From positions 1 to 40,408 of the forward strand of contig NVTF01000009.1 in assembly GCA_002401485.1 (NCBI GenBank): a stretch of 40,408 nt of DNA, written 5' to 3'. The stretch comes from Elusimicrobiota bacterium (GTDB lineage: Bacteria; Elusimicrobiota; Elusimicrobia; UBA1565). Position numbers and translations under genes: made by a program. Shown one piece after another: positions 7,816 to 21,489 of the stretch (the stretch's first letter is position 1; each line of letters begins with the position of its first letter). Under the pieces are notes generated by a model. The model was not told the origin of the DNA. It worked only from the letters and a program-made list of their open reading frames with translations, and searched no databases.

Positions 7816-10668
7816 TCAGAAAGGCCAGAAATTAAGGCCTGCCAGAAAGGCCGCGACGCCGGTCAATGCGGCGGCGACCGCGAAAACGGGGTGGGACCAC
7901 CAGGACTGGGATCCCGCCTTCGTGACTCTGAGGGGTTCCTGCGTGTTTTCTTTTTCGAGAGCGAGTTCGAGGACTAAGTCGATGTGGTCCACCGATATCA
8001 GCGTCATCAGTTCCCGGATTTCCTTCGGGATGTCGGCCACATCTTTTTCGTTTTCCTTCGGAAAGAGGACTGTGTCATAACCTTGTTTGAAGGCGCCCAG
8101 CACCTTTTCGCGGAGGCCTCCGATCGCATGCACTTCGCCGTTGGTGTAAACTTCCCCGGTCATCGCGAGCCGTTTTTTAACGGGTCGGCCGGTGAGCCGG
8201 CTCATGATGGCGGTGGTGAGGGTGATGCCTGCCGAGGGTCCGTCCTTGGGCGTGCCGCCCTGGGGAACGTGGATGTGCACGTCCATCGTGTTAAAAAGCA
8301 CATCATCAAGATTGAATTGTTTAGCGCGGGAACGAACAACGGTCATGGCGACCCGGGCCGATTCATTCATTGTCTCCATGAGATTGCCGGTGATTTCCAT
8401 TTTCCCTTTCCCGTTGGGGAATGCGTTGACTTCGATCGGGAGGATGCTGCCGCCCGCTCCGCTCACAGCGAGGGCGCTGGCAACCCCGACATCGTTGTTG
8501 CTCTTCTTTCCGTGGTCGACCGGCGCGGGGCCGATCAAGGAATCAATGACCTCGGGGGTGAGTGTTACATTTTCAGCCGGTTTTCCCGTCTCTACGTTGG
8601 ACACGATCTTTCGGAAGAGTCCTTCGATGGTTCGAGTCAGTGTCCGCACGCCGGCTTCCATCGTGTAGTGCTGAATCAAATGCAACAATCCCTCTTCCGG
8701 GAGTGTTGCCTCCGCTTCGGTCAGGCCTGTCTCCTTGCGGCCTCGGGGATCGAGAAATTGGGAGCCGATCTGAATTTTTTCCGAATCCATGTAGCCGTCA
8801 AATTCGATGATTTCCAAGCGGTCGCGAAGCGGACCCGGGATGCGACTTAAATCGTTGGCGGTGGCGATGAAGAGGACTTCGGATAAATCGAAAGGCAAAT
8901 CGAGGAAGTGGTCGGTGAAGGCGTGGTTCTGTTCGGGATCCAGCACCTCCAGCAGCGCGGCCATAGGATCACCGTTGCCGCCGCCTTCCGGCGGCATTTT
9001 TTCCAATTCATCTAAAACCAGGATGGGATTTTTTGAACCCGCCCGGCGTATGGTTTCGAGGATCACGCCCGCTTTAGATCCTGTATAGGTGCGGCCGTGT
9101 CCGCGAATTTTGGACTCAGTGCTGACGCCGCCTAACGCGATGCGAATGTATTCCCGCCCCATGGCTTCGGCGATGCCTTTTGCGATGGAGGTCTTTCCGG
9201 TCCCGGGAGGTCCCGTGAAGAGGAGAATAGCGCCTTTTTTGTTATCCAGCCGTTTCCGGACTGCGAGAAATTCAAGAATTCGGGTTTTGACCTTTTCAAT
9301 CCCGAAGTGGTCCCGGTCGAGAATCGCCCGGGCGTGGTCGAGGTCTAAATTGTCTTCGGTTCGTTTGCTCCACGGCAATTCGAGAGCAAAGTCGAGCCAC
9401 TGTTCAATCTTCTGGGCTTCGGCGCCCGAGGATTTTTCCAGGCCGGCCGCTTCCTTTCTGACCAATTTCTCGACTTCCTCGGGGAGTCCCGCCGCTTGGA
9501 TGCGCCGCTCGAGATCGTCTGCTCCCTGCTTTTGTTTCTTAACCGCCTTTTTGTCCATGGCGAAAAATTGAGCGATGGCTTTCAGTTGGTCCAATTTGGA
9601 GTCAAATAAGATGATATCGTGCTGCGCCTGAACGTGCATGTTGTCAAAGAGTATTTTGACGGCGTCCGCCGGATCGCGATCGATAAGTTCCATGTACAAA
9701 TCGCCGGCCGCCGGGTCGGTCATGGCGATTTCATTGATGTCGCTGATGATATCGGAGAGAACAAGGTAATAGGCGTCGAGGTCATCCCCTATAGGGGCTG
9801 GGTGTTCCTCGCGTACGGCGGCGATCAATCCAACGGAGGTTTCTGAGTCCGCGCGAAACTTAAGGGAGTTGATTTCAACCCGGGCTGCGACTTCGAGAAT
9901 AAAAATTTGGGGACCGTCGCTTGTCACCTTGGCAAGCAGCGCCGTCTTTTCTTTTCCCCGCATCCCGTTTTGGGAGGTGAGGATTACGTAGCCGTTGTCC
10001 TTTCCTTCATGAGCCGCTTTCGAGAGGGCTTCGTGCAGCGGCGGTGAGGTTTGATCGATGTTGGTCAGGGAGACATGCGTACCCGGTAAATAGAGCCGCG
10101 ACATCCCCATAATCGTTGCTTCGCCGGGGAAATTGTTCATGGTGCCGTTGTTGTTGTTTCCACCGACGGCATTGTCCGGGGGAGCGACTTGAGCATCGGC
10201 TCCGTTCAATTGGAAGACATTACCCTCGAAAAATAAATCGAGGGCCGAGTTCGCCGTGCGGAGATTGCCGGCCTCGATTGAACGGGTAACCCCTTCCATC
10301 GTTTTCCCCAGGGTTTGCAGGACGCTCCCGCGTGATTGGATCGTAACCCCGGATTTAACTGTCGTTTTGGGACTGAGCCCAATTCTTTTGGGAACCGCCA
10401 TCAATTGGGGAGCAGCCTGCACGGTTTGCTGGGGTAAGGCTACCCCGATGGACGGCGACATGGTGGTGAGAGCGGGGACAACCAGGGAGGATGATAAATC
10501 GGTCAGGCTCAGCGGCTTGAGCAGGCCGGTGCCCGATGGAGAAACCTTAAATGCAGCACCGGGCACGGTGACCGATTTTCCGGCGGCGGCACGCATAGCC
10601 CAAAGATTCGGTGTGCTGGAGGTGATTAAAAGGACGGAAAGGCTAATTGCGATGAATTCTCTGGCCAC
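7816..10668 (-). CDS. Lon-type protease with signal-like N-terminus and C-terminal TM (copy 1)
   Basis: This 950-residue Lon (S16) protease degrades proteins using ATP. The AAA+ module has Walker A GPPGTGKT (about 486-493) and Walker B VLDELEKM (about 551-558). The protease domain has the catalytic serine in PKDGPSAG (about Ser812) and the lysine in GLREK (about Lys855), at the usual 43-residue spacing. Unusually, the N-terminus is a signal-like hydrophobic stretch ending in STPNLWA. About 150 low-complexity residues follow, rich in Ala, Pro, Ser and Val, before a divergent Lon N-domain. The last 25 residues are a membrane segment (FAVAAALTGVAAFLAGLNF). GTG at 10668 is chosen over TTG at 10677 because the latter lies within the -10 box. 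It is a close paralogue of the Lon just upstream. Topology is puzzling because the ATPase needs cytoplasmic ATP. Confidence 0.93.
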   Translation of the reverse strand: MAREFIAISLSVLLITSSTPNLWAMRAAAGKSVTVPGAAFKVSPSGTGLLKPLSLTDLSSSLVVPALTTMSPSIGVALPQQTVQAAPQLMAVPKRIGLSPKTTVKSGVTIQSRGSVLQTLGKTMEGVTRSIEAGNLRTANSALDLFFEGNVFQLNGADAQVAPPDNAVGGNNNNGTMNNFPGEATIMGMSRLYLPGTHVSLTNIDQTSPPLHEALSKAAHEGKDNGYVILTSQNGMRGKEKTALLAKVTSDGPQIFILEVAARVEINSLKFRADSETSVGLIAAVREEHPAPIGDDLDAYYLVLSDIISDINEIAMTDPAAGDLYMELIDRDPADAVKILFDNMHVQAQHDIILFDSKLDQLKAIAQFFAMDKKAVKKQKQGADDLERRIQAAGLPEEVEKLVRKEAAGLEKSSGAEAQKIEQWLDFALELPWSKRTEDNLDLDHARAILDRDHFGIEKVKTRILEFLAVRKRLDNKKGAILLFTGPPGTGKTSIAKGIAEAMGREYIRIALGGVSTESKIRGHGRTYTGSKAGVILETIRRAGSKNPILVLDELEKMPPEGGGNGDPMAALLEVLDPEQNHAFTDHFLDLPFDLSEVLFIATANDLSRIPGPLRDRLEIIEFDGYMDSEKIQIGSQFLDPRGRKETGLTEAEATLPEEGLLHLIQHYTMEAGVRTLTRTIEGLFRKIVSNVETGKPAENVTLTPEVIDSLIGPAPVDHGKKSNNDVGVASALAVSGAGGSILPIEVNAFPNGKGKMEITGNLMETMNESARVAMTVVRSRAKQFNLDDVLFNTMDVHIHVPQGGTPKDGPSAGITLTTAIMSRLTGRPVKKRLAMTGEVYTNGEVHAIGGLREKVLGAFKQGYDTVLFPKENEKDVADIPKEIRELMTLISVDHIDLVLELALEKENTQEPLRVTKAGSQSWWSHPVFAVAAALTGVAAFLAGLNFWPF

Positions 10669-10673
10669 ACCTA

Positions 10674-10679
10674 ACAATA
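10674..10679 (-). promoter_or_regulatory. -10 box upstream of Lon copy 1
   Basis: TATTGT on the minus strand ends 5 nt before the GTG at 10668. The same CTATTGTTA context precedes the second lon gene. GTGACG 18 nt further upstream is a plausible -35. Confidence 0.45.
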
Positions 10680-10773
10680 GATGAGAAATTGATGAAACGT
10701 CACCGTCGTAAGGCCTATTTAGGGTTGAGAATAGGTCCTAGTGTGAATTGGGACCGGGGACCTGGGGCTATGC

Positions 10774-13638
10774 CTATCCGGTGAAGGGACCGAGAAACAT
10801 TAACGCCAGACCCACCGCGCTGGCTACAATCGCGGCCCCGATGAGCAGAGGAGCGACCCATGTAGGAACTCGCGACCTTGAGGCGGGCTTCACCGTCAGC
10901 GGCTCTTCTACGGCCGTTTGCTCCAGCGCGTGCTCGAGGACCTGATCGATATGATCCACGGGGATGAGGGTCAATTTCTCTCGCACTTCTTGAGGGATTG
11001 AATCGACGTCTTTCTCGTTTTCCTTGGGGAAAAGAACGGTGGTGTAGCCGAGCTTGGCCGCCCCCATCGCTTTTTCGCGCAGGCCCCCGATGGCGTGTAC
11101 CTCTCCGTTGGAGTAAACCTCACCGGTCATGGCGACCTTGGCCTTCACGGGCCGTCCGGTGAGACGGCTCATGATTGCGGTGGTAAGGGTAATCCCCGCC
11201 GAGGGGCCGTCCTTGGGTGTTCCGCCTTGGGGAACGTGAATATGCACATCCATGGTGTTAAAGAGGGCATCATCGACGCCAAAGGCCGCCGCCTTGGAGC
11301 GAACCAGGGTCATCGCGACCCGCGCGGATTCGTTCATTGTTTCTTTTAGATTGCCGGTGATTTCGATTTTTCCTTTGCCGTTGGCGAAGGCATTCACTTC
11401 GATGGGCAGAACACTGCCGCCGGCTCCGCTGACCGCTAAAGCGCTGGCAATACCGACAGCGTTGTTGGCCTTCTTTCCGTCGCCGACGGGCGCGGGTCCG
11501 ATGAGCGCGTCAATTGTTTGCGGGGTGAGCTCAACGTTCTTGGCTTTTTTTCCGGTCTCCGCATTGGAGACGATTTTCCGGAAGAGTCCTTCAATGGCCC
11601 GGGTCAAATTGCGGACCCCGGCTTCCATTGTGTAATGCGAAATCAAATGCATCAGTCCGGCATCTCCGAGCGTCGCCTCGCTTTCTTTAAGGCCGGTTTC
11701 TTTGCGGGCTCGCGCGTCGAGATAACGTGATCCGATCTCCATCTTTTCGCCGTCGGTGTAGCCGGAATATTCGATGATCTCCAAACGGTCTCGCAACGGG
11801 CCGGGAATGCGGCTCAGGTCGTTGGCCGTCGCGACAAAGAGGACCTCGCTTAGGTCGAACGGAAGGTCGAGATAATGGTCGGTGAACTCGTGATTCTGTT
11901 CCGGATCAAGAACTTCCAAAAGCGCCGCCATGGGATCGCCGTTGGCGCTGCCTTCCGGCGGCATCTTCTCCAACTCGTCCAATACCATGACCGGGTTTTT
12001 AGATCCCGCTCGACGAAGGGTTTCGAGGATCACGCCCGCTTTAGACCCTGTATAGGTCCGGCTGTGTCCGCGAATTTTGGACTCGTTGCTGACGCCGCCT
12101 AAGGCGATGCGCACGTATTCGCGTCCCATCGCTTCGGCGATTCCTTTTGCTATGGAGGTTTTTCCGGTGCCGGGGGGACCCGTGAAGAGCAGGATGGCTC
12201 CCTTTTTGTTGTTCAGGCGTTTGCGCACGGCGAGGAATTCAAGAATACGGTTTTTGACCTTGTCGAGGCCGAAATGGTCCCGGTCCAGGATTTTGCGGGC
12301 GTGATCCAAATCCAGATTATCCTGGGTACGTTTGCTCCAGGGAAGATCTAATAGGAAGGTCAGCCACTGCTCGATTTTCTGCGCGTCCGCGCCGGATGAT
12401 TTTTTGAGGGCAGCCGCTTCTTCGAGGGCTTGCTTCTCTACATGCGCGGGAAGTCCTGCGGCCTTGATGCGGTCCGCAATTTCTTCGGTCTTTTTTTCTG
12501 TTTTCTTGCCCGCCTTAGCCCCTTCTTCAAAGGCTTGGGCCAGGACCTCCATCTGCTCGATCATGGAATCTTTTTCGATGACCTTGTGCTGCCAGCCTAC
12601 GCTGACGTTAGCGAAAAGAGTCTTAAAGGCGACTTCCGGGCTCTCCCCGGTGACCGTGTCGATGAGCTTGGCAGCCTCAGGGGAATCTGTTGAGATGGCC
12701 TCGATGGCAGCTAAAATGTCGAGCAGTATATCCTCGTATGCCGCATTTTCGCTAGTGCCTTCCCCAAAAGGCGAGGGCGCGTTGCGGCGAATCTTGGTGA
12801 TTCTCGCGGTCTGAATCCCGGCTTCCGGTTTCCCGTGAATCTGATCGATTTCAATGCGTTCCTTGGAAACCAGGAGCACGCCTTTGTCCCCGTTGGCTTT
12901 TACTTTCGCGAGAATCGCAGTTTTGCTCTTTCCCGCTATTCCCACGTGTGACGTGATGATGATGTATTGGTCGTTGGCTCCCTTTAAGGCCTGGTCGATC
13001 GCCGTTTTTACGGCGGGTGGGGCTTTTGCGCCATGGCTGAATGAGAAGCTCACGCCTGGCGGAGGAAGTTGGGTGAGGCTGATGAGGCCTGCTTTGGCCG
13101 GAAAACTTTTCGAGATGGGGGGGAGATCCCCACCATCGGCGTCATTGTCGTTGAGGCCGTCAAAGACCGATCCCAGTGCCGCGTTGGCGCCTGTAAAGTC
13201 GCCCCCTTTTAGGGACTGAGAAATTCCTATGGAAATTTTATTGACCGATCCTATTATAGACCCGTTTTGAACTTGAAGCGGCGTGGGGGAAATTTGAATG
13301 CGGGTTTGGTCGGGGGCCAATACGTCCCGCATCACCGGCAGCGCTGAGGGGACTGGAGGGTTAAAGCGAAGAAATCCTGCGTTGGTATGTATTTCTGCCG
13401 TTGCGTTTGGAATCTCCGTAACCGCCGGTGCGCTGAGGGTCGAAGAGAAATCCGTGAGGGTCAACCCTTCCAGGACGGCTAAGCCCGTAGGGGAGAATGC
13501 CGCATTCGCTCCGGGGACCGCGATTCGTTTCCCGACGCCGACGCGTCGCGCCCAGAGTTCGGGAACGCCTGCGCTGCTGAGAAGAATGCAAAGGCTGACG
13601 GCAACAAATCGCTTAAACGCTGTTTTTTCTTCGACCAT
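10774..13638 (-). CDS. Lon-type protease with signal-like N-terminus and C-terminal TM (copy 2)
   Basis: This 954-residue paralogue of the adjacent Lon has the same order: signal-like segment (FVAVSLCILLSSAGVPELWA), low-complexity linker, divergent N-domain, AAA+ module with GPPGTGKT at about 487-494, and protease domain. The catalytic pair is about Ser813 and Lys856. The C-terminus is a membrane helix (APLLIGAAIVASAVGLALMF). AAA+ and protease parts are nearly identical to copy 1, whereas the first 350 residues diverge strongly, suggesting different substrates or partners after duplication. ATG at 13638 is chosen over TTG at 13656 because a -10 box TATTGT lies between them. Copies are 105 nt apart and each has its own promoter-like sequence. 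Both retain every catalytic residue, so both are probably active. Confidence 0.93.
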   Translation of the reverse strand: MVEEKTAFKRFVAVSLCILLSSAGVPELWARRVGVGKRIAVPGANAAFSPTGLAVLEGLTLTDFSSTLSAPAVTEIPNATAEIHTNAGFLRFNPPVPSALPVMRDVLAPDQTRIQISPTPLQVQNGSIIGSVNKISIGISQSLKGGDFTGANAALGSVFDGLNDNDADGGDLPPISKSFPAKAGLISLTQLPPPGVSFSFSHGAKAPPAVKTAIDQALKGANDQYIIITSHVGIAGKSKTAILAKVKANGDKGVLLVSKERIEIDQIHGKPEAGIQTARITKIRRNAPSPFGEGTSENAAYEDILLDILAAIEAISTDSPEAAKLIDTVTGESPEVAFKTLFANVSVGWQHKVIEKDSMIEQMEVLAQAFEEGAKAGKKTEKKTEEIADRIKAAGLPAHVEKQALEEAAALKKSSGADAQKIEQWLTFLLDLPWSKRTQDNLDLDHARKILDRDHFGLDKVKNRILEFLAVRKRLNNKKGAILLFTGPPGTGKTSIAKGIAEAMGREYVRIALGGVSNESKIRGHSRTYTGSKAGVILETLRRAGSKNPVMVLDELEKMPPEGSANGDPMAALLEVLDPEQNHEFTDHYLDLPFDLSEVLFVATANDLSRIPGPLRDRLEIIEYSGYTDGEKMEIGSRYLDARARKETGLKESEATLGDAGLMHLISHYTMEAGVRNLTRAIEGLFRKIVSNAETGKKAKNVELTPQTIDALIGPAPVGDGKKANNAVGIASALAVSGAGGSVLPIEVNAFANGKGKIEITGNLKETMNESARVAMTLVRSKAAAFGVDDALFNTMDVHIHVPQGGTPKDGPSAGITLTTAIMSRLTGRPVKAKVAMTGEVYSNGEVHAIGGLREKAMGAAKLGYTTVLFPKENEKDVDSIPQEVREKLTLIPVDHIDQVLEHALEQTAVEEPLTVKPASRSRVPTWVAPLLIGAAIVASAVGLALMFLGPFTG

Positions 13639-13644
13639 GTGATA

Positions 13645-13650
13645 ACAATA
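13645..13650 (-). promoter_or_regulatory. -10 box upstream of Lon copy 2
   Basis: TATTGT on the minus strand is 6 nt from the ATG at 13638. It is conserved with the corresponding site of Lon copy 1. Confidence 0.45.
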
Positions 13651-13734
13651 GGCCAATCACGATTAAGTCGAAACAGTCAGAAGACCTATGTTTTGTTGGG
13701 AATTCGGCCCATGGCCGAGTGGGACCAACGAAAC

Positions 13735-14607
13735 TTATTTTTGGTGGGCGGTGATGTCTTGGAAGGTCACACCGGCGCCCGCCAACTGTCCTTGCGTGTC
13801 CTTAATGAGAAGCGTGCTGTAACCAAGGACGCGTTGTTGTCCCTCAAATTCCCAGTGAACGTCTTTTCGTTTGACCGTTTGTTTGGTCGCAAGGGTGCGG
13901 CGAATCACGCCTGCTAATTGAGGGATGAGGTCGAGTACATTTTCAACAGCTCGGTCGGTCGCCTCTCCTTGGATGCCGAGCATCTGTCGGGCGGCCGGGT
14001 TGCAAATCATAACGCGCCCCTGAAGATCCACCGCTAGAAAGCCTCCTGATAGATTGTCGAGGATTGAGGAGTTGTAGGTCGTGACGCGGTTGACCATCGA
14101 ATCCAGTTGGAGGCGGCGGATGGTGTGGGATGTTTGCTGGATTGTCGATTTTACGAAACGCAGGTCTTCGCTGGTGAACATTTCGCCGGCTTTGTTGATG
14201 AATTCAAAAACTCCGACAAAATCGAGGTTTATAAATAGCGGGACAGCAAGCACGCTTTTTGTCTCGACCCCCGGGGCGGAATCAATGAGCGCCTTAAAAC
14301 GTGAGTCGGAGGGGGCATCGGCGAGTAGCGCGGGTTCATGAAATTTTGAAACCCAACCGGCAAGGCCCTCTCCCGGTTCGACCGGCGCTTTGGTGGGGGC
14401 GTCTGATCCTGCCCCGATTGAGTGGAACGAGACGAGTTGGTGGGAGATTTGATCGTGATAAAAGTAGATTGCCGCTTCCGCGTCCAGAGCGGCGGCGGTT
14501 TTCTCCAGCATACGCGACCAGACCTTGATTTCATTGGACTCCCGCAGCGAGTCTAGAAATTCAAGAACATCATAGAGGGTCGCGAGGCGTCGGTCTTCGC
14601 CGCTCAT
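13735..14607 (-). CDS. GAF-PAS sensory protein without output domain
   Basis: This 290-residue cytoplasmic protein begins with a GAF domain (about 25-165; motifs EPGEGLAGWVSKFHEPALL and SVLAVPLFINLDFVGVFEFI). A PAS domain follows (about 175-288), ending in VTFQDITAHQK, the typical exit to a kinase helix. No histidine kinase, GGDEF or DNA-binding domain follows, so it would sense a ligand and act by protein contact or heterodimerisation. The ATG overlaps the TGA of the upstream peptidase gene (ATGA), showing translational coupling. It sits directly upstream of the two Lon genes, making a role in signalling to envelope proteolysis conceivable but unproven. Confidence 0.88.
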   Translation of the reverse strand: MSGEDRRLATLYDVLEFLDSLRESNEIKVWSRMLEKTAAALDAEAAIYFYHDQISHQLVSFHSIGAGSDAPTKAPVEPGEGLAGWVSKFHEPALLADAPSDSRFKALIDSAPGVETKSVLAVPLFINLDFVGVFEFINKAGEMFTSEDLRFVKSTIQQTSHTIRRLQLDSMVNRVTTYNSSILDNLSGGFLAVDLQGRVMICNPAARQMLGIQGEATDRAVENVLDLIPQLAGVIRRTLATKQTVKRKDVHWEFEGQQRVLGYSTLLIKDTQGQLAGAGVTFQDITAHQK

Positions 14608-16580
14608 AAGAGTCTCCCGAAATGGATGCGCCTTTGGAGTGGTTTGCGGCGGGTGAGGTCGGTCACCAAGGTGCCCGATTCGATTGAGTCCAGGGCTGCG
14701 CCGAATCGTTCGGTGAATGTCGTTCGCAATGTGCGTGAGACGCCGGCCCGGCTCTCAAGAATTCCATCACCCCCGGTGTAAAACATAACGTGGTCGACAA
14801 TTTTAGAGCGAGCGGATTCCGTCAGAAAAATCAGATCGCCCGGTTCCAGGTGTTCCCTTTTTATGGGGCGGGCTTTTTCAAATTGGGCGTGTGCGTCGCG
14901 CGGAACGGTTAAGCCGACCGAGCGATAGGCAAGGTGAATGAGTCCGGAGCAGTCGACGCCCCAGCCGGGTTTTAGCTGTTGACTGGATCGTCCTCCCCAT
15001 ACATAGGTATCCCCGAGGAAGGTCGCAGCCGCTTCCACGATATCGCGTCTGTTCACCACTCTTTCGCTGGAGACTTCGAGGCGCCACAGCGCGGCGGAGT
15101 CGATTTCGGCTGTGCGGCCTTCCAGAAGACGAACCTTGGTGCGTGGTCCTTTGGAGGGTTCCGCCTGCAGGGCGGCGCCCATGGGCAGGGTGAGGACTTC
15201 CTCGAGACCTTGGGCGTCGCGCCAACGCAGCTCCGCTCGTTTTAGACGGATGACCGAGGTCGGGCGATAGGGTACCGGCGGCGCGGCGAGGGCATCGGCG
15301 CGGACCCAGCCGGGATACCCGCTCCAGGCATTCTTCCCGTTATTGTGGGGTTGTTCGAGGGCTTTAACGAGAACCCAATCCCCCTTGGCTTCCACAACTT
15401 TGACGTGTTCTCCGTACAGGAGTTGGGAGAGACGTCCCTTGTCCATCGCATTGGGCCCCGCTGTCTGGCGCGGCCGTTGGCGTAAATCCGCTGTCGGTAC
15501 GCCGACAACCGCGACCGAGGGAAAACGAGGTCCGAGGAGATAAACGAGCCCGTGTTTATTCTGCAGCCAGACCCGCTCGAATTGTTTGCGTTTGTAAATG
15601 CGGCGTACGCCGCTGGGTTTGGCGGCGGGATCATAGGTGATGATATCCCCGTGTTTGGTGAAACCGGCGACAACGAGAAGATGTCCGTTCGTTTTTGAAA
15701 TCGGAGAATTGTCGAGCTCCCCTTTTTTATACGTGATCGAAGCAATCACGGGTCGGCCGGCGGCGATTTCTTCTTGAAGATCCAGCAATGATTCCAAGCG
15801 GGCAACTTGTCCGCTGAGACCGAGCGAGGCGGCGGCCGCGACGTTGAGGGGCCAGTTGCCGTAGATTTCGGCGTTGCGGTCAAAGACTGTTTCGGCGATT
15901 TTGGCGGTTGTTCGTTTAACCCCCCACCGCTCCAGAATCATGGAGAGTGATGTCGGCGAGCAAACGTGCGGCGCGATGGCCGGATCTTCATCGCTTTGGG
16001 AGCGGGGGGAAAGTTTTATTTCCCGGGCCCAGGGTCCCTTTGCCCACGGGACATGCACAACGCCTTTTCGACTCGTGTCAGCGTAGGTCACGGCGACACG
16101 CAGCAGTTTTGCCTCCCGCGTCCCCGCAGAGAGCATTCGGATCCGGTAGCGGAAGGCTTGCGCTTTTTTCTTGAGCTCGAGTGTATCGACGGAAACCTTG
16201 CCATGCCGATCCGCTTGTTTTTCGAAGCTGCGCGGCGCGCCGGGTTCCCAGCGCGATAGCCGGTACCATTTTGTCCAGCGCCCGTCGATGCGAACCTGTG
16301 CTTCCATTTCGACCGATGAGCCGCGGGGCGTATCGGCGTTCCAGGAACCGACAAGATCATCGAACGGGAAATCGGCTTCGATCACCGCGGACTCCAGAGA
16401 ACCGGTTCCCTGCAGGAGTCCCTTCTCAAAAGACAGCGGTGTGAGTCCTTCGATGCGGGCTTCTTTGATCTCGAGCGGCCACGCATGCACAATGGTCATG
16501 CCTGCCTCGGTGCTTGAGGCGACTGCCAACGCGACGACTGCAATAAATAAAGATCTGCGGTTTCGCGTGATGAGTTGCAT
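14604..16580 (-). CDS. Exported double cysteine peptidase: C39-like plus SH3 and NlpC/P60
   Basis: This 658-residue protein has an N-terminal signal peptide (LFIAVVALAVASSTEA). A beta-rich region (about 35-170) precedes a peptidase C39-like papain-fold domain (about 185-350) with Cys207 in HVCSPTSLSMIL, His300 in NGHLLVVAGF and Asp317 in ITYDPA. SH3-type segments follow (about 360-500: DLRQRPRQTAG, WVLVKAL, GYPGWVRADAL). The C-terminal NlpC/P60 domain has Cys544 in DCSGLIHLAY and His597 in VDHVMFY. NlpC/P60 enzymes cut peptide bonds in peptidoglycan stems, and the SH3 parts bind the wall. Two intact cysteine-protease triads in one chain are unusual. A Shine-Dalgarno-like AAGGA is about 10 nt before the ATG. 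The next gene (GAF-PAS) overlaps by 4 nt. Confidence 0.88.
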   Translation of the reverse strand: MQLITRNRRSLFIAVVALAVASSTEAGMTIVHAWPLEIKEARIEGLTPLSFEKGLLQGTGSLESAVIEADFPFDDLVGSWNADTPRGSSVEMEAQVRIDGRWTKWYRLSRWEPGAPRSFEKQADRHGKVSVDTLELKKKAQAFRYRIRMLSAGTREAKLLRVAVTYADTSRKGVVHVPWAKGPWAREIKLSPRSQSDEDPAIAPHVCSPTSLSMILERWGVKRTTAKIAETVFDRNAEIYGNWPLNVAAAASLGLSGQVARLESLLDLQEEIAAGRPVIASITYKKGELDNSPISKTNGHLLVVAGFTKHGDIITYDPAAKPSGVRRIYKRKQFERVWLQNKHGLVYLLGPRFPSVAVVGVPTADLRQRPRQTAGPNAMDKGRLSQLLYGEHVKVVEAKGDWVLVKALEQPHNNGKNAWSGYPGWVRADALAAPPVPYRPTSVIRLKRAELRWRDAQGLEEVLTLPMGAALQAEPSKGPRTKVRLLEGRTAEIDSAALWRLEVSSERVVNRRDIVEAAATFLGDTYVWGGRSSQQLKPGWGVDCSGLIHLAYRSVGLTVPRDAHAQFEKARPIKREHLEPGDLIFLTESARSKIVDHVMFYTGGDGILESRAGVSRTLRTTFTERFGAALDSIESGTLVTDLTRRKPLQRRIHFGRLL

Positions 16581-19181: not shown

Positions 19182-19958
19182 TTATTTCTTTTTTTTAGGT
19201 ATTTTGCCATCCATTCGGTCCTTGGCAAAACCTAAATGTTTGGCCAGGGCGCCCATGTTGGCATCGGCGAGGAAGGTGTCGGCCGCGGCATTGACGGCCG
19301 CTGATTTCGCCATGGTTTGAATAAAATCGCGCATATCTTCCCGCAGCATGTATTTCCCGAACATGCCTCGAAAATTGGGAGAGCCAACCATTTTCACCAT
19401 GAATTTGATCGCGTCCCGGTCCTTTTGGTAGGCGGCGTTGATTTTGCGCAAATCCTTGTGCCCCAAAAATTCTTTTTTCCAGTCTTGGAGCGCTTTTGAG
19501 TTTTTGAACCGGGGATCCTTTTTTAGGTCGTAAAATGTACTCTTCGCTTTCTTTACCTTGCGGCGTTCGCCGGCCGAGGTGTCCTTCATCGTTCGCGACG
19601 ATGGTTTCTGGATTGGTGGGGGAGTTGGCCGCTGTTGTCTGCGTGTTCGATCCGAACCGGTATAAGTCGCAGGAGCGCCGACTCTTCCTTGGCCGAGCGC
19701 GGGATGGTCCCGGGACTCTTTGATGACCAGTCTCATGGAGGCCTCAAGATCTTTAACCGATGGAGGAATCGGGCGTGAGGCGTAGAGGTTGGGGTCTTTC
19801 TCCGGGGAGATCGCTAAATTAAATCCGGAATCATCGAGAGTTTCTTGTCGCCGTTGGTAGATGTGCCAGCCCCAAATGAGGAGCCCTATATCAGCGAGGA
19901 TAACCACCAGTAAAAAGACTTGGCCGCCGACGCTTTTAGGTTTTCGGATGAGTCCCAT
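19182..19958 (-). CDS. Anchored envelope protein, paralogue B
   Basis: This 258-residue protein has an N-terminal membrane segment (VFLLVVILADIGLLIWGWHI, about 14-33), a Pro- and Arg-rich linker (about 60-130), and a helical domain (about 135-250). That domain aligns with the one in the protein at 17998-18957: the Trp-Lys-x-Phe-Leu start, the Lys-x-Leu-x-x-Ile helix and the spacing of the next three helices agree. The tail is Lys-rich (KIPKKKK). ATG at 19958 is chosen because a consensus promoter (TTGACA-17-CATACT) ends at 19973, so a TTG at 19973 could not be on the transcript. It is divergent from the barrel-LysM gene. Family unnamed; function unknown. Confidence 0.8.
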   Translation of the reverse strand: MGLIRKPKSVGGQVFLLVVILADIGLLIWGWHIYQRRQETLDDSGFNLAISPEKDPNLYASRPIPPSVKDLEASMRLVIKESRDHPALGQGRVGAPATYTGSDRTRRQQRPTPPPIQKPSSRTMKDTSAGERRKVKKAKSTFYDLKKDPRFKNSKALQDWKKEFLGHKDLRKINAAYQKDRDAIKFMVKMVGSPNFRGMFGKYMLREDMRDFIQTMAKSAAVNAAADTFLADANMGALAKHLGFAKDRMDGKIPKKKK

Positions 19959-19972
19959 CGCTGTTATCGTCA

Positions 19973-20001
19973 AGTATGGCTCGGCGCCTTTGGCCTGTCA
20001 A
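19973..20001 (-). promoter_or_regulatory. Promoter of paralogue B
   Basis: The minus strand has perfect -35 TTGACA (19996-20001), a 17-nt spacer and -10 CATACT (19973-19978). The ATG at 19958 is 14 nt further, giving a leader of about 7 nt. Confidence 0.8.
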
Positions 20002-20026
20002 GCGTGCCTGCCGTCGGGATTTGTTG

Positions 20027-20032
20027 TATACT
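20027..20032 (+). promoter_or_regulatory. -10 box of the barrel-LysM operon
   Basis: TATACT is 8 nt before GTG 20041. No -35 match is seen at 17-18 nt. The predicted transcript is leaderless. Confidence 0.5.
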
Positions 20033-20040
20033 TCCGGGGC

Positions 20041-21489
20041 GTGAAAGGCGGATTCCTTCGAATATCGCTGGCTTTTTCTCTAGCGTTCAGCATCGTTCCG
20101 GCCGAGGCGGCTATCTTCAACGATATTCAGCCTGGTGCTCGTGCGATGGGCATGGGTTATGCTTACGGTGCCATCTCCGACGACGTTTACGGAATGTTTT
20201 TTAATCCCGCCGGTCTTGCGGGCGCCCCGTTCGCGCAGATTTCGGGCGGCATCCAACGTATTCCGTCGAATGTGGGCATTCTTTCGCAAGAGACGTTTGT
20301 CTACTCGAGGCCGTTTCCGATCCTTCCGGGGTCAACCGTGGGTGCCGGTTTTACCGATCTGAAGCAGAGAAATGTCGGAGGGAAGGGTCAATTTTTGACC
20401 CATTTTTCAACGACCCTTGATCTCAAGAAATATTTTATTCCCAAACCTGTTAAAGTCGGGGCGAACTTTAAGATCTCAGCAGTGGATCCAAAGGACAAGC
20501 CGAATGTGGTCGCCTTGGGTTTTGATTTGGGCGCGATGATCGAGCCGGGGTGGAATATGACTTACGGCCTTTCGATCACCGACTTGAGCACCAACGTCGG
20601 CGTTCCGACGCCGACCGTTACCGCCGCTGTTGCGTATCGCTACAAGCGCCGAATCCATTTTGCATTGGACCTGAGAATGCGCAGCGGGTTGACCGCGCTG
20701 TATCCCGGCATTGAAGTGGACTTTCTTTCCCGCCTGCTTAAGGTGCGGGCCGGCCGAGGTGTATCGCTTGATTTTCAAGACACCTTAGCATTGGGTGTTG
20801 GCATTAATTATTCACCGCTCTTCCTTGATTTTGCGGTGACGCTGCCTGCGAAAGGACGGACGCATTCCGGAACCGGCGTTCAGGTTTCGACGACTTGGAA
20901 ATTCGGAGCCCCGCCGTTTTACGGACGCTTCCCCGGGGAGGCCGCCCGGACCGCTGAAGATATGCGGGGAGATGTCGCCGACCTGAAGCGCCAGGTGAAG
21001 GATTTGCGCCGCATTCGCGACGCCGCAGATGCGAACAAAACGAGTCTAGAGGGTCAGGTCAACGCCGAAGAAGAACGCTTGCGGGATTTGCAGCAGCAAA
21101 GCCGCGATCTTGAGTACGATCTGCAGCGTCGCCGCTATGATCGGGATCATGACGAGCCGGGAGACCCTTTGTTATCAACCCCTGATGCCCAAGAGGAAGA
21201 TCCTTTTGCGAATTTCCCGGCGTCGATCGATTCGTCTTCTGTGCCGAGTCCCAGCCCGACTCTCTCTCCGACACCCAAGAAAACGCGCAAGCGGCGAATT
21301 CGGAAGCGATCGCGCTTCCCTAAGCGGCATCGGGTCAAAGCGGGGGACACGCTGAGAAAATTAGCAGACAAGTATTACGGGAACCCTGCGTTGTGGGAGG
21401 CGATTTACGAAGCCAATCCCGACCGCATTGAACGCGGACTGCCGATTGAAGGAAAGACTCTCATCATTCCTAAGCCGGACAAGCGCTGA
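20041..21489 (+). CDS. Outer-membrane beta-barrel fused to coiled coil and LysM
   Basis: This 482-residue protein has a signal peptide (LRISLAFSLAFSIVPAEA). A PorV/PorQ-like outer-membrane barrel follows (about 25-305), opening with IFNDIQPGARAMGMGYA and FFNPAGLAG, typical of that family. A coiled coil (about 315-375), a Pro-Ser linker and a strongly basic stretch (KKTRKRRIRKRSRFPKR) lead to a C-terminal LysM domain (about 430-478: HRVKAGDTLRKLADKYYGNP). LysM binds peptidoglycan glycan, so the protein would tie the outer membrane to the wall. GTG at 20041 is chosen as it begins the signal peptide and follows TATACT by 8 nt. The next gene overlaps by one base. Barrel-plus-LysM fusion is uncommon. 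Confidence 0.85.
   Translation: MKGGFLRISLAFSLAFSIVPAEAAIFNDIQPGARAMGMGYAYGAISDDVYGMFFNPAGLAGAPFAQISGGIQRIPSNVGILSQETFVYSRPFPILPGSTVGAGFTDLKQRNVGGKGQFLTHFSTTLDLKKYFIPKPVKVGANFKISAVDPKDKPNVVALGFDLGAMIEPGWNMTYGLSITDLSTNVGVPTPTVTAAVAYRYKRRIHFALDLRMRSGLTALYPGIEVDFLSRLLKVRAGRGVSLDFQDTLALGVGINYSPLFLDFAVTLPAKGRTHSGTGVQVSTTWKFGAPPFYGRFPGEAARTAEDMRGDVADLKRQVKDLRRIRDAADANKTSLEGQVNAEEERLRDLQQQSRDLEYDLQRRRYDRDHDEPGDPLLSTPDAQEEDPFANFPASIDSSSVPSPSPTLSPTPKKTRKRRIRKRSRFPKRHRVKAGDTLRKLADKYYGNPALWEAIYEANPDRIERGLPIEGKTLIIPKPDKR

Follow-up and report, generated by a model that had tools for sequence, protein, structure and literature searches.

A tandem pair of LonA-type protease genes

The window analysed in this study is a stretch of 40,408 nucleotides from an Elusimicrobiota bacterium, which corresponds to contig C27 of a draft genome (G000; 2.9 Mb in 191 contigs, 78% complete). 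It contains two ORFs on the same strand, at 10774-13656 (-) and 7816-10737 (-), whose products are called Lon-A and Lon-B here (Table 1). The Pfam families AAA, Lon_lid and Lon_C were all matched in both proteins, and both exceeded the curated cut-off of 608.05 bits for TIGR00763 'endopeptidase La' (639.3 bits for Lon-A and 621.7 bits for Lon-B). Motif reading found Walker A (GPPGTGKT) and Walker B (LDELEK) intact in both, together with the Ser motif KDGPSAG and the catalytic Lys (GGLREK). These results confirm an earlier note on this DNA, which had described a tandem Lon pair with intact AAA+ and Ser-Lys motifs. The Pfam LON domain had no match in either protein, yet an AlphaFold model of Lon-A, structure prediction being a check that the note had proposed, aligned with full-length Lon over 802 columns with the N-domain included. 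The N-terminal parts of the two copies have diverged, as had been claimed, with 29-34% identity in the signal peptide, linker and LonN region (33.8% in the linker alone) and 44% in the helical region. However, the catalytic parts fall short of the near identity attributed to them, as they are 85% identical in the AAA domain plus lid and 82% identical in the protease domain.

Table 1. Features of the two Lon genes, in window coordinates
Feature	Coordinates	Strand	Remarks
Lon-A	10774..13638	(-)	LonA-type ATP-dependent protease with signal-peptide leader, 954 aa, ATG start
TATTGT -10-like box, Lon-A	13645..13650	(-)	6 nt upstream of ATG; leaderless-transcript arrangement
Lon-A signal peptide MVEEKTAFKRFVAVSLCILLSSAGVPELWA	13549..13638	(-)	followed by basic RRVGVGKR; holds the sole Lon-A Cys (residue 17)
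Lon-A linker	13177..13548	(-)	predicted disordered for the most part
Lon-A linker-end motif LGSVFDG	13156..13176	(-)	order-wide LxxLF[D/E]G; closes a predicted helix
Lon-A diverged LonN-like N-domain	12769..13101	(-)	model aligned to full-length Lon 7fd4, 802 columns
Lon-A AAA+ domain	11764..12192	(-)	Walker A/B intact, 0 Cys
Lon-A Lon_C protease domain	10921..11520	(-)	Ser-Lys dyad intact, 0 Cys
Lon-A C-terminal transmembrane helix	10792..10848	(-)	KD-19 2.55; helix in AlphaFold model; preceded by RSR
Lon-B	7816..10668	(-)	second LonA-type protease with signal-peptide leader, GTG start probable
TATTGT -10-like box, Lon-B	10674..10679	(-)	5 nt upstream of GTG
Lon-B signal peptide MAREFIAISLSVLLITSSTPNLWA	10597..10668	(-)	hydropathy and signal-peptide scan
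Lon-B linker-end motif LDLFFEG	10222..10242	(-)	leader motif comparison
Lon-B AAA+ domain	8803..9225	(-)	Pfam and motif reading
Lon-B Lon_C protease domain	7954..8556	(-)	Pfam and motif reading
Lon-B C-terminal transmembrane helix	7834..7890	(-)	KD-19 2.06

The two proteins share the AAA+ and protease domains, the motifs and the fold of LonA (S16 endopeptidase La), but they differ from it in having a signal-peptide leader with a linker, a diverged N-domain and catalytic parts free of cysteine. Archaeal-type LonB is a membrane-associated AAA+ S16 protease, and the AAA+ membrane proteases of the FtsH type are membrane-held zinc proteases. Unlike FtsH, the window Lons are Ser-Lys proteases with an unrelated domain order, a leader and a loss of cysteine. 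Unlike LonB, they have no membrane insertion within the AAA domain (interior KD-19 maxima <=1.62), and their Ser motif is KDGPSAG. The Ser motif of LonB is defined as [E/D]GDSA, from which the LonA type is distinct (PMC2605481), and membership of the window Lons in LonB was ruled out by their LonA-type Ser motif and by the lack of an insertion.

Hydrophobic ends and start codons

Both window Lons begin with a hydrophobic segment ending in ELWA or NLWA. For Lon-A and Lon-B respectively, the KD-19 maxima are 1.71 and 1.93 at the N-terminus and 2.55 and 2.06 at the C-terminus. The AlphaFold model of Lon-A (mean pLDDT 73.9) predicts a helical start, a low-confidence stretch at residues 22-130 that suggests disorder, two helices ending at VFDG, then the Lon body in full and lastly a helix near the C-terminus (residues 929-946). 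The arrangement described in the earlier note, a signal-like N-terminal segment followed by a linker and ending in a C-terminal helix, is therefore borne out by the hydropathy peaks and the model, and hydropathy does not reject the segments at both ends as membrane helices. The note's claim that the proteins are anchored at both ends is more doubtful, as cleavage of the N-terminal segment as a signal peptide is more likely than its retention as an anchor. Similarly, its suggestion to look for the same architecture elsewhere had a divided outcome. The N-terminal element was found throughout the order, but the C-terminal transmembrane helix was missing from the C187 paralogue, the C130/C13 paralogue and the relatives and was present only in the two window copies. 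Membrane anchors at both ends were thus rejected as a trait of the family. The charge, topology and signal-peptide analyses in this study were crude home-made hydropathy scans and not trained predictors; the site picker took a small residue other than LWA in both Lon-A and Lon-B, and cleavage sites for single proteins are rough.

The start of Lon-A is the ATG at 13638, and that of Lon-B is most likely the GTG at 10668 rather than the TTG at 10677 given in the ORF list. A TANNNT box followed after 5 to 7 nucleotides by a start codon lies just before the hydrophobic segment in 33 of the 81 genes carrying the leader described below, both window Lons among them, while random start codons taken as a control for these 81 genes had such a box in a mean of 2.3 and a maximum of 8 cases. 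In close orthologues, substitutions are concentrated at third codon positions throughout the signal peptide and linker. Furthermore, the homologues begin at the signal peptide; starts after residue 150, which the note had said would count against its proposal, were not seen. A late start codon for the leader-bearing Lons was rejected on the basis of the homologue starts, the -10-like boxes and the excess at third positions, and the predicted starts of the leader genes appear to be real.

A leader shared by many proteins of the order

The leader consists of a Sec-type signal peptide, an A/P/S/L-rich linker of 80-150 residues and an end resembling LxxLF[D/E]G, which in G000 is often followed by NAAD. 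The usual signal-peptide pattern among leaders of the order is ..ALL..(S/T)xPGP....AxA|Q. According to the home-made scan, an n-h-c signal peptide with A at -1 is present in all 21 leaders of G000 and in 41 of 42 leaders from other genomes; 32 of these 42 have an AxA-type site and 25 have Q at +1. The early mature region is basic in the G000 leaders (mean net charge +1.9) and near neutral in those of other genomes (+0.43).

Searching G000 with a leader profile gave about 20 further stretches besides the Lons, mostly within large ORFs. The carriers include Clp-type AAA+ giants, a double ABC exporter, MutS, SecA with TPRs, MFS, M48 plus ABC1 kinase, VWA/TPR, PLD and adenylate kinase, and in relatives the leader is also found on M50, AAA and PspA/IM30 proteins. 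The PspA/IM30 domains behind the leader are often in tandem (L298, L310, L379, L380). No leader-bearing DnaK was seen. When 120 genomes of the phylum were sampled, the profile matched at E<1e-4 in 5 of the 7 same-order genomes listed and gave one weak match among the remaining genomes. The leader looks like an innovation of the host order.

Lons with this leader number 16 proteins from 13 genomes (G000 and twelve related ones), all of which start with a signal peptide, and almost every copy keeps its Walker A/B and Ser-Lys residues. All 16 lie on one side of a tree branch with support of 98/99, and the other side holds ordinary Lons from the same genomes and from other phyla. A whole-protein contig search had supplied the ordinary LonA of many phyla, used as outgroups, and two Elusimicrobia Lons, with which the leaderless LonA of G000 (contig C17) groups with support of 100/98, a placement that makes an Elusimicrobiota origin of G000 probable. 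The leader-Lons therefore form a separate clade beside ordinary LonA, which has no export signal and is presumably cytosolic. A third leader-Lon of G000 is split over contigs C130 (L188) and C13 (L382), which overlap by 18 bases (ATGGATATGCATATCCAT), and it has no C-terminal membrane helix. In G017, a leader-Lon ORF on contig C28 (L067/L255) adjoins a Clp-type ORF, and the matched Lon frame has one in-frame TGA.

Cysteine content of the leader proteins

The only cysteine of the two window Lons is in the signal peptide of Lon-A, and Lon-B has none. The AAA and protease domains of the leader-Lons have 0 cysteines in 8,655 residues, compared to 50 in 8,325 in the order's ordinary Lons (p 3e-16), leader-Clp proteins have 0 in 14,161 compared to 55 in 17,502 for ordinary Clp (p 1e-14), and leader-SecA has 2 in 2,400 compared to 114 in 17,984 for ordinary SecA (p 1e-4), although these p-values overstate independence within a family as its members share ancestry. 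The recurrence of the loss in many families carries more weight. Lons from other phyla have 33 cysteines in 6,075 residues of the AAA and protease domains. No comparable change is seen in the leader-Lons for Met, Trp, His, Phe or Tyr, so the loss is specific to cysteine. Taken together, the mature leader proteins of G000 have 4 cysteines where about 161 would be expected in about 21,400 residues. The MutS-type ATPase (L280) and the double ABC exporter (L278) of G000 have the leader and a mature part without cysteines.

The Clp giants retain 0, 2 or 4 cysteines, mostly as close pairs such as CSYDYWC, and it has been reported that exported proteins of Gram-negative bacteria favour even cysteine numbers (PMC7678975). 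Several of the giants share the conserved cysteine pair LALPC[ST]YDYWCIREK. Because unpaired cysteines have been lost in many unrelated families, an oxidising, extracytoplasmic location of the leader proteins is the best explanation of the loss. Injection into the cytosol of another cell was also considered and rejected, as that place would be reducing and cysteine loss would not be expected there.

Leader-bearing paralogues and their gene neighbourhoods

Ordinary SecA was found in nearly every genome, and a second, leader-bearing SecA in G000, G001, G003 and G005 (L286, L375, L376, L378). For SecA, Clp and adenylate kinase, leaderless forms occur beside the leader-bearing ones. The ordinary adenylate kinase adjoins secY, and about 14 genomes have a second one, which bears the leader in every case where the start could be clearly read. 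In 14 sequences of this second kinase the P-loop, GFPR and RxDD are intact. The leader-adenylate kinase has no zinc-cysteine lid. As ordinary SecA and adenylate kinase are kept, the leader proteins are paralogues and not REPLACEMENTS.

Some leader genes are linked. An operon on contig C53 of G000 (L372:4506-9635) has the order secY2, leader-PLD (cardiolipin-synthase-like), leader-adk and a J-domain protein; the leader-adk of G005 is near leader-SecA, and that of G015 is divergent from a leader-Clp giant of 2,415 aa. Extra SecY proteins were found in G000 and G001, and they have no leader; the C53 copy has 0 cysteines. Contig C21 of G000 (L373) encodes another diverged SecY, which has 6 cysteines, and close to it lie a short leader ORF and an ORF for an IS30-like transposase. 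The leader-Clp giants (L173:1082-7099, L254, L258-L270) range from about 1,500 to 2,900 aa, and some have M50- or CPBP-like membrane parts.

Relatives of TLC-type ADP/ATP carriers exceeded the cut-off in 20 of 38 genomes and in 0 of 14 controls. Every genome of the family to which the window belongs has them (L289, L290, L291, L292), and they contain cysteines. Chance matches were dismissed, as running Pfam on whole ORFs raised the scores to 72-87 bits, which are still those of divergent relatives, and the cargo of these proteins may be something other than ATP.

Interpretation and alternatives

The earlier note had left it open whether the N-terminus is a signal anchor or the enzyme is used in the envelope, and the order-wide AxA|Q signal peptides and the cysteine-free mature proteins favour the envelope. 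The data presented here suggest that the Lon pair probably belongs to a leader-carrying LonA lineage that is exported and performs ATP-dependent proteolysis outside the cytoplasm. The bipartite leader would send the Lons out of the reducing cytoplasm, most likely to the periplasm or a continuous space, where they would use ATP to unfold and degrade envelope proteins, and the window copies would additionally be held to the membrane by their C-terminal helix. They may act alongside Clp-type unfoldases fused to intramembrane-protease-like parts, a second SecA, and ABC and MFS proteins. Because ATPase motifs are conserved in the leader proteins, nucleotide is expected in the extracytoplasmic space; there the leader-adenylate kinase could balance the adenine nucleotides, and ATP might enter through the TLC-type carriers, so that the kinase and the TLC relatives may form a supply route for ATP. 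Export, cleavage, ATP in the space, the substrates and the direction of the carriers are all elements that we infer.

Some observations fit this poorly, among them the divergence of the TLC matches and the failure to see a leader-bearing DnaK. Basic residues early in the mature part normally hinder Sec export, and basic residues also precede the first membrane helix in several polytopic leader proteins, as RSR precedes the C-terminal helix of Lon-A. By the positive-inside rule these residues would put their side of the helix in the cytoplasm, and the side after the linker looks cytoplasmic in the polytopic leader proteins. A hairpin returning the linker to the cytosol was considered for the polytopic proteins; the Lon linkers show no clear second membrane helix. 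Either the charge rules are bent in the host lineage or the space resembles a second cytoplasm. The latter would mean that the leader proteins are received by an ATP-containing lumen, be it the periplasm or an internal compartment, and that the polytopic ones are inserted from the lumen side by its own SecA and SecY2 with their basic side toward the lumen. This would reconcile the signal peptides, cysteine loss, ATPases and positive-inside charges, and the leader-SecA of four genomes, the extra SecY of G000 and G001 (the C53 copy without cysteines) and leader-PspA would all have a place in it. However, no such bacterial compartment is known for the host lineage, none of the extra SecY proteins bears a leader, the C21 copy has 6 cysteines, and the topology analysis is crude, which makes this version unlikely.

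The same charges could also mean that the proteins never leave the cytoplasmic face. The N-terminal segment would then be an uncleaved N-out/C-in anchor and the C-terminal helix a second one, the linker and the core of Lon would remain cytosolic, and the leader would be a membrane-localisation tag on machines of the cytosolic face, many of which act on membranes. Basic residues after the N-terminal segment (in G000) and before the C-terminal helix, and the positive-inside pattern of the polytopic proteins, agree with this, and ATP outside would be unnecessary. However, cysteine has been almost wholly lost in many unrelated families, which disfavours such a tether, the relatives have signal-peptidase-like AxA|Q sites, and the leader is also borne by adenylate kinase, which is soluble in most of these genomes; we consider a tether quite unlikely. 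Extracytoplasmic ATP is the least secure step of the favoured reading, and the open-access literature yielded no precedent for bacterial ATP-dependent proteases outside the cytoplasm. Exported Lons might instead be ATP-independent peptidases or chaperones whose ATPase motifs are only structural, but hardly any copy has lost its Walker A/B or Ser-Lys residues, the leader-adenylate kinase keeps its active-site motifs and several different ATPases bear the leader, so this seems very improbable. Lastly, start codons in MAGs are uncertain and Lon-B has no ATG start, so the extension could be an artefact of a misread start or a fusion, with the true protein beginning internally. We give this hardly any credence, since the extension is conserved order-wide, the predicted starts have -10-like boxes and a codon-position bias follows them, and cysteine loss is seen in exactly the leader-bearing copies.

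In the textbook view the bacterial periplasm has no ATP and hence relies on ATP-independent chaperones and proteases, and we know of no ATP-dependent work outside the bacterial cytoplasm. The results suggest that this order runs such work. A more far-reaching proposal, an ATP-containing second working compartment outside the cytoplasm with its own SecA/SecY for protein export, Lon/Clp for quality control, transporters, PLD-type/PspA proteins acting on lipids and membrane shape, and Adk under one leader, is tentative and on balance doubtful. Mitochondria and plastids have Lon, ClpC, SecA and a local adenylate kinase, ATP machines that N-terminal leaders direct away from the main cytosol. The likeness to these organelle machines is one of logic only, as the present system is bacterial and its leader begins with a signal peptide. 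The open-access literature gave no earlier description of a set of ATP machines that share a leader. The nearest is a report on Atribacter laminatus, a member of a different phylum. According to its passages on this subject, core-process proteins, FtsZ and LpxC among them, carry N-terminal extensions of 10-73 residues, the Sec signal peptides are unusual and there appears to be an intracytoplasmic membrane; a Lon/Clp/SecA/Adk leader set is not among the extensions described in those passages (PMC7736352). If the reading favoured here is true, an order that exports cysteine-purged Lon, Clp, SecA and adenylate kinase would break the rule of the ATP-free periplasm and offer a tractable case of relocating ATP-driven work to a new compartment, a step central to organelle origins. 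The leader provides a simple handle by which the entire protein set can be listed and tested.

Other genes in the window

Two further ORFs of the window were annotated. The one at 14604-16580 encodes a signal-peptide protein with C39-like, SH3 and NlpC/P60 domains and is probably a cell-wall peptidase. The ORF at 19861-21489 gave weak PorV/PorQ-like and LysM-type matches, which hint at a type IX-like envelope component.
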